Below, piece after piece: positions 15,967-48,813 of a DNA stretch of 64,000 nt (the stretch's first letter is position 1; every line of letters begins with the position of its first letter). The translations under genes were made by a program, and so were the position numbers. The stretch is from Solobacterium moorei (GTDB lineage Bacteria; Bacillota_I; Bacilli_A; Erysipelotrichales; Erysipelotrichaceae): NCBI RefSeq assembly GCF_036323475.1, contig NZ_AP028934.1, forward strand, positions 744,001-808,000. The letters are read 5' to 3'. The notes beneath the pieces were generated by a model that saw only the letters and a program-made list of their open reading frames with translations, searched no databases and was not told where the DNA came from.

Positions 15967-16782
15967 ATGACAGAGATGAAACAGACAGTTTCTGATCCGG
16001 TGACAAAAGAGAGTTTTATCCAAGCACTGAAAAGTCTTGGTATTACTGGCAATCAGATTTTGGAAGTACATACACAGATGTCTAGTTTCGGATATGTAAT
16101 TGGTGGTGCTCGAACAATCGTAGATGGTTTGATGGAGTTGTGCGAAAATGGCGGGACGATTCTCATGCCAGCACAAGCAGTTGATAACAGCGAACCGAGT
16201 GATTGGGAATATCCAGCGGTTGCACCGACGCTTTACAAAGAAATTCGTGAAGCGATCCCAGCTCACGATACAAGGACAAGTGATGTACATTACATGGGAT
16301 CAGTTGTTGAAAACTTTAGACTAAGAGATGGTGTGATTACTTCCTCACATCCAACCTTCTCTTATTCTGCATGGGGTAGATATGCAAGATTGTTATGCAA
16401 TCATCAATCGATGCATTTCCCACTGGCAGATGAATCTCCAACCGCAAGACTCTATGAATTAAAAGGATATGTACTTTTAATTGGCTGTGATTTTGATTCG
16501 GCAACATGCATGCATCTAGCTGAGTACCGCTCTGATTGTCGACCAATCGGCATTCAAGGTGCAAAGGTCAAGACCGCAGAAGGTGATGTGTGGAGAAAAT
16601 ATCTTGATTTACAGTTAGATAGTGATATCTTCCTGAAAGTTGGACAAATGATGCGAAAGAAAAACATGGTTAGAGAAACCATGTTAGGTGGTTGCAAGAT
16701 TACGCTTTTCTCGGCTGCAAATGCAATTGATGAAGCCATGCGTTATTTTGATAAGACCATGGTGTACGATTTATATCGTTAA
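15967..16782 (+). CDS. AAC(3)-fold N-acetyltransferase (Antibiotic_NAT family, YokD-like)
   Basis: A 271-aa member of the aminoglycoside 3-N-acetyltransferase fold family: HTQMSSFGYVIGGARTIVDGLM, GTILMPAQ, EPSDWEYPAV, SSHPTFSYSAWG and CDFDSATCMHLAEY follow the family pattern. Such proteins transfer acetyl groups from acetyl-CoA. Chromosomal relatives such as YokD/FrbF-type proteins are not necessarily resistance enzymes. I start at ATG 15967, because the longer frame runs back into psuG. It ends the psu operon, overlapping the opposing fRMsr gene by 4 nt. Operon position suggests a metabolic role; resistance to an aminoglycoside cannot be predicted. Confidence 0.82.
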   Translation: MTEMKQTVSDPVTKESFIQALKSLGITGNQILEVHTQMSSFGYVIGGARTIVDGLMELCENGGTILMPAQAVDNSEPSDWEYPAVAPTLYKEIREAIPAHDTRTSDVHYMGSVVENFRLRDGVITSSHPTFSYSAWGRYARLLCNHQSMHFPLADESPTARLYELKGYVLLIGCDFDSATCMHLAEYRSDCRPIGIQGAKVKTAEGDVWRKYLDLQLDSDIFLKVGQMMRKKNMVRETMLGGCKITLFSAANAIDEAMRYFDKTMVYDLYR

Positions 16783-17234
16783 ATCCAATGATGCTGTAGG
16801 TATGCTTGTGCGATGTCATAAGCAGCCTGCAGCATTTCATTTTCTTCCTCTTGACCAAAGCGACTAGTAATTGGAGAATCAATATCAATTTCACCAACGC
16901 ACTTTCCATTTACAATGATAGGCACACAAAGTTCACTGCGACTATCGCAATCACAAGCAATATGTCCTGAAAAGGCTAGTACGTTATCAATGCGCTGTAC
17001 ACTTTTATCACGGTAACATTTCCCGCAGACGCCTTTATCAAAAGGAATCCTTGTGCAGGCAGGTTTTCCCTGAAAAGGGCCAAGAACGAGTTGGTTATCC
17101 TTTACAAAATAGAATCCAACCCAGTTAATATTTTTGTAACTCATTTGAATGCACGCACTGACATTGGAAAGTGCGGCAATCTTATCGCTTTCTTCTAAAA
17201 AAGTGCAAATTTGTTTATTTAATATCGTTTTCAT
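16779..17234 (-). CDS. msrC: Free methionine-R-sulfoxide reductase (GAF domain, fRMsr)
   Basis: A 151-aa single GAF-domain enzyme that reduces free methionine-(R)-sulfoxide. The family hallmarks are visible: NINWVGFYFV, LVLGPFQGKPACTRI with C60, GVCG with C70, HIACD with C94, and GEIDIDSP. The three cysteines are those used in catalysis and recycling in known fRMsr proteins; an extra Cys occurs at 73. It converges on the acetyltransferase with a 4-nt overlap, and the mgtE promoter lies just behind its start. Confidence 0.92.
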   Translation of the reverse strand: MKTILNKQICTFLEESDKIAALSNVSACIQMSYKNINWVGFYFVKDNQLVLGPFQGKPACTRIPFDKGVCGKCYRDKSVQRIDNVLAFSGHIACDCDSRSELCVPIIVNGKCVGEIDIDSPITSRFGQEEENEMLQAAYDIAQAYLQHHWI

Positions 17235-17254: not shown

Positions 17255-17282
17255 TTGATTAAAATAAACACAGAATTATAAT
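17255..17282 (+). promoter_or_regulatory. Promoter of the mgtE leader
   Basis: TTGATT (17255-17260) and TATAAT (17277-17282) are separated by 16 nt. Transcription would start near 17289, giving a leader of about 130 nt before the mgtE start codon. Confidence 0.7.
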
Positions 17283-17286
17283 GAAA

Positions 17287-17411
17287 CCAGAGGGAGGCTA
17301 TATCTATGGATGATATATCTGGTGAGTGTAACACGGATGTAAAAATAAATAAATGATATAGCCATAAAGGTTCTTTTTTATGATGGCTGTATCAGCCAAT
17401 CATGAGGGAGG
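17287..17411 (+). promoter_or_regulatory. Structured mgtE leader, candidate riboswitch
   Basis: GGCTATATC (17296-17304) pairs perfectly with GATATAGCC (17355-17363), closing a domain of about 68 nt. The same GATATAGCC can instead pair over 9 bp (one G-T) with GGCTGTATC (17385-17393), and GGCTGTATC can also fold with the adjacent CAGCC. The first strand has its own alternative, TATATC with GATATA at 17313-17318, inside a CCAGA/TCTGG stem. These exclusive pairings end just before the GGGAGG ribosome site (17406-17411), as expected for a translation-controlling switch. It lacks the conserved core of the M-box (ykoK) Mg riboswitch and I could not match it to another known class. Confidence 0.55.
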
Positions 17412-17421
17412 ATTTTTTATT

Positions 17422-18753
17422 ATGGACAAGGACTTAGTTTTAGAGTGGATTAAAAGCAACAATTTAAAAGAATTACATGAATATTTAAAGAAACAGAATG
17501 TCGTTGATATTGCGGAGTTTCTCCACGAGTTGGATGATAGTACACTAGCAATCTTCTTTAGAATTCTAGAAAAAGAAGAAGCGGCGAATGTTTTCTCCTA
17601 TTTAGATAACGAAGAACGCAATCGTTTGATCAAGACCTTTAATAATGCTGAAATTGTAAACGTGATTAACGAACTATACTCTGATGACGCGATTGATTTT
17701 CTATCTGATATGCCAGCAAATCTGGTAACACAGCTGTTAGATAAAGTTGATGATGGTGTTCGCAAAGATATTAATCATTTATTAAAGTATAAGGATGATA
17801 CTGCAGGAAGTATCATGACGGTTGAATTTATTGAGTTTACAAAAGAGATGACAGTTGCAGACGCACTAGCAAAAATCAAGCGCGTTGGTATTGATAGTGA
17901 GACGGTGTATACCTGTTATGTAGTAGAAAACCGTAAACTAATTGGTATCGTCAGTGCAAAGAGTTTGATGTTAAGTGACTCTGATGTGCCTATCAAGGAC
18001 ATCATGAAGACAGAATTCATCTATGCATATACAAGTGATGACAAAGAAGACATCGCTAAAAAGATGAAGAAGTATGACTTGATTGCCTTACCTGTATTAG
18101 ATGTAGAAAACTGCATTGTTGGTATCGTAACATTCGACGATGCGATTGACGTCTTGACAGAAGAAACAACAGAAGACATGCAGAAGATGGCTGCAATTGT
18201 TGCGAATGATAAGCCATACCTAACAACATCTGTGTGGGAACATGCACGTAGCAGAATAGTTTGGCTATTAATCTTAATGTTTTCAGCAACATTGACAGGG
18301 AGTATTATCTCCAACTATGAACATGCCTTTGAGGTGATGCCAGTACTTGTATCCTTTATTCCTATGCTGATGGATACAGGTGGAAACTGTGGATCACAGA
18401 GTTCAACTTTGATTATCCGTGGTTTAGCGATTGATGAAATTAAGTTCAGCGATTTCTTCAAGGTTGTATTCAAGGAATTTAGGATCTCTATTGTTGTGGG
18501 TATAGTGCTAGGTTTAGCAAATGGTATCAGAATTGTTGTGCTAAATCATGACGTATATCTAGCAATTGTTGTTTCGGTTTCAATTGTTGTTACAGTCATG
18601 ATTTCTAAATTTGTTGGATGTGTGCTACCAATTATTGCAAAGAGATTGAAGATGGACCCAGCAATTATGGCTGCACCATTAATCACAACGATCGTAGATA
18701 CGCTAGCAATTATGGTGTACTTCTCAATCGCATCACAAATTTTCAATTTATAA
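17422..18753 (+). CDS. mgtE: Magnesium transporter MgtE
   Basis: A 443-aa Mg2+ channel/transporter. It has the N-terminal helical domain (about 1-120, with repeated DIAEFLHELDD-type motifs), a tandem CBS pair (about 125-250: DDTAGSIMTVEF, VPIKDIMKTEF, VGIVTFDDAIDV), a plug helix, and five membrane helices containing the pore motif PMLMDTGGNCGSQSSTLIIRGLA. In the family, Mg2+ binding to the N and CBS domains closes the pore. The start at 17422 has GGGAGG 10 nt upstream; the longer frame begins at an ATG within the structured leader. A second mgtE is at 47452. Confidence 0.95.
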   Translation: MDKDLVLEWIKSNNLKELHEYLKKQNVVDIAEFLHELDDSTLAIFFRILEKEEAANVFSYLDNEERNRLIKTFNNAEIVNVINELYSDDAIDFLSDMPANLVTQLLDKVDDGVRKDINHLLKYKDDTAGSIMTVEFIEFTKEMTVADALAKIKRVGIDSETVYTCYVVENRKLIGIVSAKSLMLSDSDVPIKDIMKTEFIYAYTSDDKEDIAKKMKKYDLIALPVLDVENCIVGIVTFDDAIDVLTEETTEDMQKMAAIVANDKPYLTTSVWEHARSRIVWLLILMFSATLTGSIISNYEHAFEVMPVLVSFIPMLMDTGGNCGSQSSTLIIRGLAIDEIKFSDFFKVVFKEFRISIVVGIVLGLANGIRIVVLNHDVYLAIVVSVSIVVTVMISKFVGCVLPIIAKRLKMDPAIMAAPLITTIVDTLAIMVYFSIASQIFNL

Positions 18754-19658: not shown

Positions 19659-21184
<1,526 letters not shown>

Positions 21185-21413
21185 TAAGGAGAAAGATGTG
21201 AAGTAACAAGTTGTTGAAGAAGTTTTATTACCTGTTTAGTTTTGAGAGATCTCGCAAGAGGTAGCTCAGAAGGAAGTAGCTGTTCTTTGAAAACTGAATA
21301 ACAGAAGAAGACAATAGATAGGTCTTTTTCGAAAAGTTGTGATAACAAGATTAACTAAGAAAGTCTAAAACGAAATAGTTAACAGTTCTCGTAAAGCATA
21401 AACGTATATAAGT
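21185..21413 (+). other. 16S-23S spacer without tRNA genes
   Basis: About 230 nt with no tRNA. It holds the 3' arm of the 16S processing stem (21231-21251) and, at 21282-21304 (GTTCTTTGAAAACTGAATAA...), the 5' arm of the 23S processing stem, which pairs with 24359-24381 beyond the 23S gene. Confidence 0.8.
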
Positions 21414-24312
<2,899 letters not shown>

Positions 24313-24403
24313 ACGAGAGAACGCACACACGACTGTTTGAAAAAGACGAAGTCAGAAACTGTTATTTAGTTTTCAGGGAACAGAAGACCTGAAAGAAGAA
24401 AGA

Positions 24404-24508
24404 TCCGGTGATGATGGCGCAGTGGCCACACCTGTATCCATCCCGAACACAGAAGTTAAGCACTGTAGCGGCGAAAATAGCGCAAGCAAATCTAGCACGT
24501 TGCCGGGT
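24404..24508 (+). rRNA. rrf: 5S ribosomal RNA
   Basis: About 105 nt, with the conserved CCATCCCGAACACAGAAGTTAAGC and a terminal helix between TCCGGTG and the 3' TGCCGGGT. It is shorter than the usual ~116 nt of Bacilli; short 5S genes are known in the Mollicutes and related lineages, which agrees with an Erysipelotrichia host. Exact ends are uncertain by a few bases. Confidence 0.93.
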
Positions 24509-47451: not shown

Positions 47452-48813
47452 ATGTCTGAAGAAATACTGAAAGAAAATATGAATGAAGAAAGACTGCGTC
47501 ACATGATTGAAGCTGGTGAAGCCGCAGGACTTTCTGAATATATCAAAGAGAATAATCCGATTGATGTAGCACAAGCTGCTGAATATCTTGATGATGAAGA
47601 ACTATGGAAAATGTGTAGTATCTTATCTTCAGAGGATATTGCCTCCGTATTAGAGCAAGCAAAAGATGAGCTTCGTGTTCGCTTTACATATGCACTATCT
47701 AATAATGAACTTCTTGAAATCTTTAGTAGTATGGCGCAGGATGATATCGTTGATATTATCGGAGATTTAACAATTGGTAGGCGTAAAGCAATTGTGAATA
47801 TGATGAAGGATAAAGATCGTACAGAAATCACAAATCTGCTGGAATATCCTGCAGATACAGCTGGTGGTATTATGACGACTGCCTACATAGCAATTAAAGA
47901 AGATTTGAAGGTCATCGAAGGACTAGAGAAGATTCGTGAGATTGGTCCTAAGATTGAAATTATTGAAATAATCTTCGTTGTAAATGCAAGAGGGCAGTTA
48001 ATTGGTACTGCGGATTTACGTGATATTTTATCTTCTGATAAAAATATGTTGATAGCTGATATCACAAAGGAAAACTTCATCAGCGTAGGACCAGAGATGG
48101 ACCAGGAAGAAGTTGCGAAACTTGTATCTAAATACGACTTAAAAGCCATTCCAGTTGTAAATCAACGTATGGCAATTCTTGGTATCATTACTGTCGATGA
48201 TATTATCGACGTTATTGTCGAAGAGTATAACGAAGATATCTTAGAAATGGGTGGTGTATCCAAGGAAGAAAGCTTAGATACAACACTATTACAATCTATC
48301 AAGCTACGTTTGCCTTGGCTATTAATTAACTTAATTACAGCGTTTATGGCATCCTTTACAGTAAAGGTATTTGAAGGTACTATCGCTCAGGTTGTTGCGT
48401 TAAGCTCTATCATGACAATTATCTCCGGTATGGGTGGTAATGCTGGTTCTCAAACGCAGTCGATTCTAGTTCGTCAAATTGCGACAGATAAAATTGATTT
48501 CAAGAGAGTTTGGAGATCCTTTGTAAAGGAAATCTTCCTTGGAGTTATTGATGGTACAATTAATGGTTTGATTACAGCGATTATTGTAATGATTCTATAC
48601 CGTAACATATTCCTAGGTGTCATTACAGTTATTGCGATGATTGGTAACTTAGTGGTAGCAGGTATTTTTGGATTCTTAGTGCCTGTTATTTTAGATAAAT
48701 TTGGTGCTGATCCAGCTGTATCTTCTTCCATCTTTGTAACAACAGCGACAGATGTATTGGGATTCTTTATCTTCCTGGGACTAGCAAATATATTCTTGCC
48801 GATGTTAATTTGA
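47452..48813 (+). CDS. mgtE: Magnesium transporter MgtE (second copy)
   Basis: A 453-aa MgtE paralogue with the same layout as the one at 17422: N-domain (about 15-130), CBS pair (about 140-260: DTAGGIMTTAYI, ISVGPEMDQEE, LGIITVDDIIDV) and a five-helix pore with GMGGNAGSQTQSILVRQIA. The pore motif differs (GGNAGSQT against GGNCGSQS), so the two may differ in ion preference or control. It has no long leader: only about 95 nt separate it from the previous gene and no switch-like structure was found. Confidence 0.94.
   Translation: MSEEILKENMNEERLRHMIEAGEAAGLSEYIKENNPIDVAQAAEYLDDEELWKMCSILSSEDIASVLEQAKDELRVRFTYALSNNELLEIFSSMAQDDIVDIIGDLTIGRRKAIVNMMKDKDRTEITNLLEYPADTAGGIMTTAYIAIKEDLKVIEGLEKIREIGPKIEIIEIIFVVNARGQLIGTADLRDILSSDKNMLIADITKENFISVGPEMDQEEVAKLVSKYDLKAIPVVNQRMAILGIITVDDIIDVIVEEYNEDILEMGGVSKEESLDTTLLQSIKLRLPWLLINLITAFMASFTVKVFEGTIAQVVALSSIMTIISGMGGNAGSQTQSILVRQIATDKIDFKRVWRSFVKEIFLGVIDGTINGLITAIIVMILYRNIFLGVITVIAMIGNLVVAGIFGFLVPVILDKFGADPAVSSSIFVTTATDVLGFFIFLGLANIFLPMLI

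Follow-up and report, generated by a model that had tools for sequence, protein, structure and literature searches.

The window, the whole 64,000-nucleotide stretch of Solobacterium moorei DNA analysed here, carries the gene mgtE at 17422..18753 on the forward strand. By its domain content (MgtE_N, CBS and MgtE domains) mgtE encodes an MgtE-family Mg2+ channel. The start at 17422, which is preceded by GGGAGG, was retained because the upstream ATG at 17380 has no Shine-Dalgarno (SD) sequence, and the in-frame extension to that ATG was rejected. A gene for a GAF-domain protein, which we take to be possibly a free-methionine-sulfoxide reductase, lies at 16779-17234 on the reverse strand. It is divergent from mgtE, shares the intergenic region with it, and apparently sits beside mgtE in the relative L003 too. 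A 16S-23S-5S rRNA operon occupies 19659-24508, 0.9 kb 3′ of mgtE.

Sequence elements of the mgtE leader

All leader elements are on the forward strand. A sequence-only reading of this DNA had placed a promoter ahead of the leader. A promoter-like site, TTGATT-16 nt-TATAAT, is found at 17255..17282; it is a single consensus match, no more than shuffles yield. L003 has a comparable site.

Three arms described by that reading are found directly in the sequence. Arm 1, GGCTATATC (17296..17304), overlaps the SD/start region of a leader ORF (see below). Arm 2 extends over 17355..17365 with the core GATATAGCC at 17355-17363, overlaps the stop codon of the same ORF, and can pair with arm 1 or arm 3. 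Arm 3 extends over 17383..17393 with the core GGCTGTATC at 17385-17393; its partner is arm 2, as an anti-sequestor, or arm 4. The 1:2 helix has 9 perfect pairs. The 2:3 helix has 9 pairs including one G-U and can be extended to 11 (17355-17365 with 17383-17393). Both pairings are thus as claimed, and the local fold with GATATA also exists, as a TATATC/GATATA pairing in the fold with a ribosome at the uORF stop.

Two elements were overlooked. The first is a leader ORF (uORF) of 16 codons, MDDISGECNTDVKINK, at 17306..17356, with the stop codon TGA at 17354-17356. Its SD, GGGAGG (17292..17297), is separated from the ATG by 8 nt, and an SD-preceded uORF is present in relatives too. The uORF lies between arms 1 and 2 and stops 65 nt upstream of mgtE. 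Its translation has acidic Asp2 and Asp3 and, unlike most relatives, no proline. The second element is a strong 3:4 hairpin (17366..17417, MFE pairs, core -20.3 kcal/mol), which buries the mgtE SD, GGGAGG at 17406..17411, within arm 4. A U6 tract follows at 17413..17418, where additional intrinsic termination is possible; despite this U6 tail, a terminator scan called no intrinsic terminator in the window leader. L003 has a similar hairpin with U7.

The leader (17284-17430) folds at -46.6 kcal/mol, as against -27 ± 3.2 kcal/mol in dinucleotide shuffles (z -6.1). The four arms are predicted to give two alternative states, 1:2 plus 3:4 with the mgtE SD buried, or 2:3 with the mgtE SD free. This arrangement is the layout of leader-peptide attenuators. 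In translational attenuators of the ermC type, a leader peptide is combined with 1:2 plus 3:4 versus 2:3, and the SD is hidden in 3:4. The inducer there is drug-stalled ribosomes, and both the gene and the peptide are different.

Helices and reading frame in close relatives

The window was compared with four relatives, L003, L004, L107 and Eggerthia L033. The MgtE of L003 is 87% identical to that of the window. The uORF starts with MDDISGDSNTDIKL (MDDISGDS...) in L003, MDDKPGGS... in L004, MDDLPCNY... in L107, and MDDSPKLIDINT (MDDSPKL...) in L033. All three helices are retained in the four relatives, with energies of -6 to -12 kcal/mol for 1:2, -7 to -13.5 for 2:3, and -13 to -21 for 3:4, though the sequences of arms 3 and 4 are quite different. 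Positions of the uORF stop differ among relatives. In L004 and L107 the uORF extends past arm 2, and a terminating ribosome would cover arm 3 or the vicinity of the mgtE SD.

MAFFT misaligned arm 2 of the five leaders, and pairs were therefore counted on hand-cut arms. Both sides have changed in 2 of the 9 pairs of 1:2 and in 3 of the 9 pairs of 2:3, counts which come from few sequences (five) and from a cutting biased toward pairing. A letter-shuffle control on the five sequences gives 116/500 for 1:2, a weak result, and 23/500 for 2:3, a modest one. One column covaries in arms 1, 2 and 3, from C/G/C to U/A/U in L033 with a wobble intermediate in L107; such a joint change of three arms is what mutually exclusive pairing predicts. 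The alternative stems are thus conserved with compensatory changes in these five sequences, and the claim of a switch that acts in cis through mutually exclusive pairings is supported.

The sequence-only reading went further and proposed a new riboswitch, whose RNA would bind Mg2+, Mn2+ or a metabolite and toggle between 1:2 and 2:3. The helices are indeed stable and mutually exclusive, and riboswitch control is typical of mgtE. Its statement that the second mgtE (about 47497-48789) has no such leader is also correct. The Rfam covariance search of the leader gave no family at the gathering threshold, and only chance snoRNAs at a permissive threshold; the M-box model (RF00380) has no match in the leader or across the whole genome. 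The leader matches no Rfam class, in agreement with the sequence-only reading; the same result counts against a riboswitch. The ligand-binding part of the claim is not supported. In the alignment of the five leaders, conservation falls on the SD, the start codon, the first codons (an M-D-D... peptide), and the arms. The same alignment shows no aptamer-like conserved unpaired core; outside the arms it is the short ORF that is conserved, and this ORF, with its conserved N-terminal residues, fills the stretch from arm 1 to arm 2. In many relatives, the peptide and the layout are conserved and the RNA sequence is not. A ligand-binding riboswitch is thus very unlikely. We consider it likely that the region is instead a leader-peptide translational attenuator with a ribosome-destabilizing leader peptide, similar to that of mgtQ-mgtB, here acting on MgtE in Bacillota.

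Putative leader peptides ahead of mgtE genes

Sequences upstream of mgtE were surveyed in a set of 237 distinct regions, almost entirely from Bacillota (Erysipelotrichaceae, Coprobacillaceae, Clostridia and others). A uORF was scored if it was SD-preceded, had 8-60 codons, and carried Asp or Glu at position 2; the background was 20 dinucleotide shuffles. Such a uORF occurs in 109 of the 237 regions, which are not phylogenetically independent, against 7.8 (maximum 13) in shuffles. A uORF of the form M[DE]x1-5P occurs in 73 of the 237, against 1.05. The corresponding numbers for 216 control genes taken from these loci are 1 and 0. Under the rule used, roughly every second mgtE region in the sample lacks an acidic uORF. 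By these counts, a putative short leader ORF is common ahead of mgtE across Bacillota.

The usual pattern is M-D-x-x-P. Typical starts are MDSGPLP, MDPGPLP, MDPVPLP, MDAGPSN, MDAYPGR, MDERPRS and MDEIPKS. The prolines favour odd positions: 14, 60 and 33 uORFs have them at positions 3, 5 and 7, respectively, versus 7, 3 and 2 at positions 4, 6 and 8. D2 and P5 are encoded by several synonymous codons. Nonsynonymous change is lowered in the first codons, and between related pairs the substitutions are biased toward silent ones (ratio about 0.46). The varied synonymous codons and the excess of silent change indicate that the peptide, and not the RNA alone, appears to be conserved. Across mgtE genes, the peptide N-terminus and the layout persist despite divergence of the RNA, which suggests control by the ribosome and a leader peptide.

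The layout is also seen in the family. The SD/start region of the uORF is complementary to the 3′ part of the same uORF at 105 loci, with a mean z of -3.19 and 77% below -2; a control window gives a mean z of 0.03 with 4.8% below -2. Generic 2:3 complementarity over 104 loci is weak (mean z -0.78, 18% below -2), possibly because the boundaries of arm 2 were taken from the 1:2 helix. After this weak result, opening of the mgtE SD was computed with a shuffle control. Without a ribosome, opening the mgtE SD costs more than it does in shuffles (5.4 versus 3.0 kcal/mol, p 2.5e-17). At 94 loci, a block the size of a ribosome placed over the uORF start reduces this cost by 2.2 kcal/mol (median), whereas with the intervening segment shuffled the median is -0.5 kcal/mol (p 1.4e-22 versus real). 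A block placed in the middle of the uORF gives no such lowering. In some relatives (e.g. L036, L037, L174 and L196), the leader ends in an intrinsic terminator.

Many Clostridial uORFs stop 11-20 nt before the mgtE start or overlap it. Such positions would suit a uORF that serves for translational coupling or as a constitutive brake, its translation opening or occluding the mgtE SD with no sensing involved. For this function, neither the conserved acidic/Pro N-terminus nor the conserved 1:2 pairing of the uORF start is needed, and the 65 nt between the uORF stop and mgtE in the window also speak against it. We regard it as very improbable.

The M-box (ykoK) riboswitch controls mgtE in many Bacillota. 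In 18 of 80 sampled Clostridial regions it lies directly upstream of mgtE, and in 15 of these 18 an acidic uORF lies between the two. The tandem of M-box, acidic/Pro leader ORF and mgtE is seen in L034, L035, L039, L043, L060 and L145, and in the Clostridial L206, L224 and L264. The genome of the window, in contrast, uses the leader ORF with no M-box at all, and its leader shows no aptamer core. In L112 and L113, mgtE has an M-box and a short MDEG... ORF that runs into the mgtE start.

A leader-peptide attenuator of the same kind could answer to another signal, with mgtE as a downstream target: the supply of prolyl-tRNA or EF-P, the energy state via an ABC-F factor, or the general translation rate. 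Most relatives have peptides with alternating prolines. EF-P acts via the proline codons of mgtL in Salmonella (PMC6460261), and EttA acts via the acidic codons of MgtL in E. coli (PMC11282234). However, the peptide of the window contains no proline, and the peptides precede a Mg2+ channel gene and adjoin the M-box in many Clostridia. For the latter reasons Mg2+ is favoured as the common signal, and a signal other than Mg2+ seems unlikely to us.

Further ORFs were noticed in the survey. In Coprobacillaceae (L124, L125 and L152-L157), an SD-preceded ORF with an N/D-rich start and a VPEP or VPES motif overlaps the mgtE start in another frame; it may be a second type of acidic/Pro leader ORF. In Leptotrichia (Fusobacteriota; L061 and L065), the SD-preceded ORF MNEEVPEEKLNNLKFTNLCK (MNEEVPEEK) lies upstream of mgtE and looks similar. 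Among 13 corA genes checked, an acidic/Pro uORF is found at one, that of Anaerocolumna aminovalerica (L276), as the SD-preceded ORF METVPGSTYRRSENIKLNCIMQLR.

Proposed control of MgtE synthesis

Translation of the leader peptide probably decides whether the MgtE channel is made. The 16-residue peptide, acidic at positions 2-3, would be translated from its own SD. When the ribosome finishes the peptide, as expected with ample Mg2+ and a stable ribosome, or never starts, the leader would be OFF: 1:2 and 3:4 form, or the terminating ribosome covers arm 2, and 3:4 buries the mgtE SD so that no MgtE is made. At low Mg2+ the ribosome would be expected to stall or drop off in the first codons, destabilized by the acidic nascent chain. 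Initiating ribosomes would then hold arm 1 and none would reach arm 2, leaving arm 2 to capture arm 3. The 2:3 pairing would free the mgtE SD, and the Mg2+ channel would be made.

From the analogy with mgtQ-mgtB and with drop-off on MgtL, we infer that mgtE is ON if translation of the leader breaks off or stalls close to its start, and OFF if the peptide is completed. We likewise infer that the uORF is translated, that destabilization is the trigger, and that Mg2+ is the signal.

Release of the mgtE SD by a start-bound ribosome is seen in silico across relatives, and not at equilibrium in the leader of the window. The 3:4 hairpin of the window (-20.3 kcal/mol) is more stable than 2:3 (-13.5 kcal/mol), and a ribosome on the uORF start leaves the cost of opening the mgtE SD unchanged at equilibrium (9.7 to 9.6 kcal/mol); L033 behaves likewise. 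In a model of the growing transcript with a start-bound ribosome, 2:3 forms until the mgtE SD emerges. With region 1 occupied, 2:3 is favoured at equilibrium across the 94 relatives; for the window this holds only while the transcript is still growing. Because 3:4 is thermodynamically dominant in the window, the decision would have to fall during transcription; in silico, the window's own leader works as a switch only kinetically.

In Salmonella, mgtQ is an 8-aa ORF with Asp2 and Glu5, its stem-loops are 1:2 plus 3:4 versus 2:3, and the mgtB RBS is in 3:4 (PMC8092293). The acidic codons of mgtQ destabilize the ribosome, and L31 (bL31) counteracts this (PMC8092293). The window shares with it a short SD-preceded ORF with early acidic codons, including Asp2, ahead of a Mg2+ transporter gene whose RBS is hidden by 3:4, and the same layout. 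A ribosome on region 1 favours 2:3 in mgtQ, and would do so in the window during transcription. The mgtQ ORF lies between mgtC and mgtB in Gammaproteobacteria, and MgtB is a P-type ATPase, whereas the ORF here is a 16-aa 5′ leader of the unrelated MgtE in Bacillota. The window ORF does not sit between mgtC and mgtB as part of an operon of the mgtCBRU type, and for this reason we liken the leader to mgtQ in its working and not as an orthologue. The 2:3 helix is more stable in mgtQ (-16.4 versus -12.3), and 3:4 is more stable in the window. Some mgtE relatives use intrinsic terminators, and many are behind an M-box.

Ribosomes translating MgtL, the leader peptide of enterobacterial mgtA, drop off at an acidic/proline motif when Mg2+ is low, and EttA has a stabilizing effect on MgtL translation (PMC11282234). 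The prolines of Salmonella MgtL occupy positions 3, 5, 7 and 9 (PMC6460261). This alternation is absent from the window peptide and partly present in many relatives; Clostridial peptides such as MDPGPLPS share with MgtL the acidic start and prolines at 3, 5 and 7. Both systems have alternative leader structures and a Mg2+ importer downstream. MgtL, however, acts via Rho-dependent termination, and the mgtE leaders would act via SD sequestration or intrinsic termination. In Mycobacterium tuberculosis, an M-box leader contains the conserved small uORF rv1805A and is likewise linked to Mg2+; in that leader the uORF is under M-box control, pe20 is the downstream gene, and the peptide is reported to be mycobacteria-specific (PMC12810186). 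The mgtE motif SRC-65-1 is also a candidate structured leader upstream of mgtE, but it is reported from Thioalkalivibrio alone and is classed as a riboswitch candidate, not a uORF (PMC11109978). It was set aside, as it shows no sign of relation to the window leader.

In the open-access literature, Mg2+ control by abortion of leader-peptide translation concerns enterobacterial P-type ATPase transporters and is suggested for corA. The search of that open-access literature turned up no description of mgtE leader peptides in Bacillota. The attenuation principle is already known; the gene, the phylum and the tandem arrangement appear to be new. We hold it fairly probable that mgtE leader peptides of a widespread class (M-[DE]-x-x-P/S/G...) make the ribosome a Mg2+ sensor in Bacillota, alone, as in the genome of the window, or directly behind an M-box, by way of four-arm attenuators whose last element either sequesters the SD or is an intrinsic terminator. 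If so, translation-abortion sensing of Mg2+ would be common beyond enterobacteria, on an unrelated transporter family. The shared peptide signature and four-arm layout suggest that ribosome-based Mg2+ sensing on Bacillota mgtE is ancient or arose repeatedly. The leader ORF offers an explanation for the control of mgtE where the M-box is absent, and the tandem of M-box and leader peptide would place two Mg2+-linked switches on a single mRNA. The mgtE leaders also lend themselves to tests of intrinsic ribosome destabilization in Gram-positive bacteria.

A different MgtE, with about 45-50% identity, is found in most species assigned to the same genus (genomes G001-G069); an M-box accompanies it in some, and the leader ORF is mostly lacking. 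The closest counterparts of the mgtE and leader of the window are found in G037, G011 and Eggerthia. Together, these comparisons suggest that mgtE and its leader in the window came by replacement or transfer.
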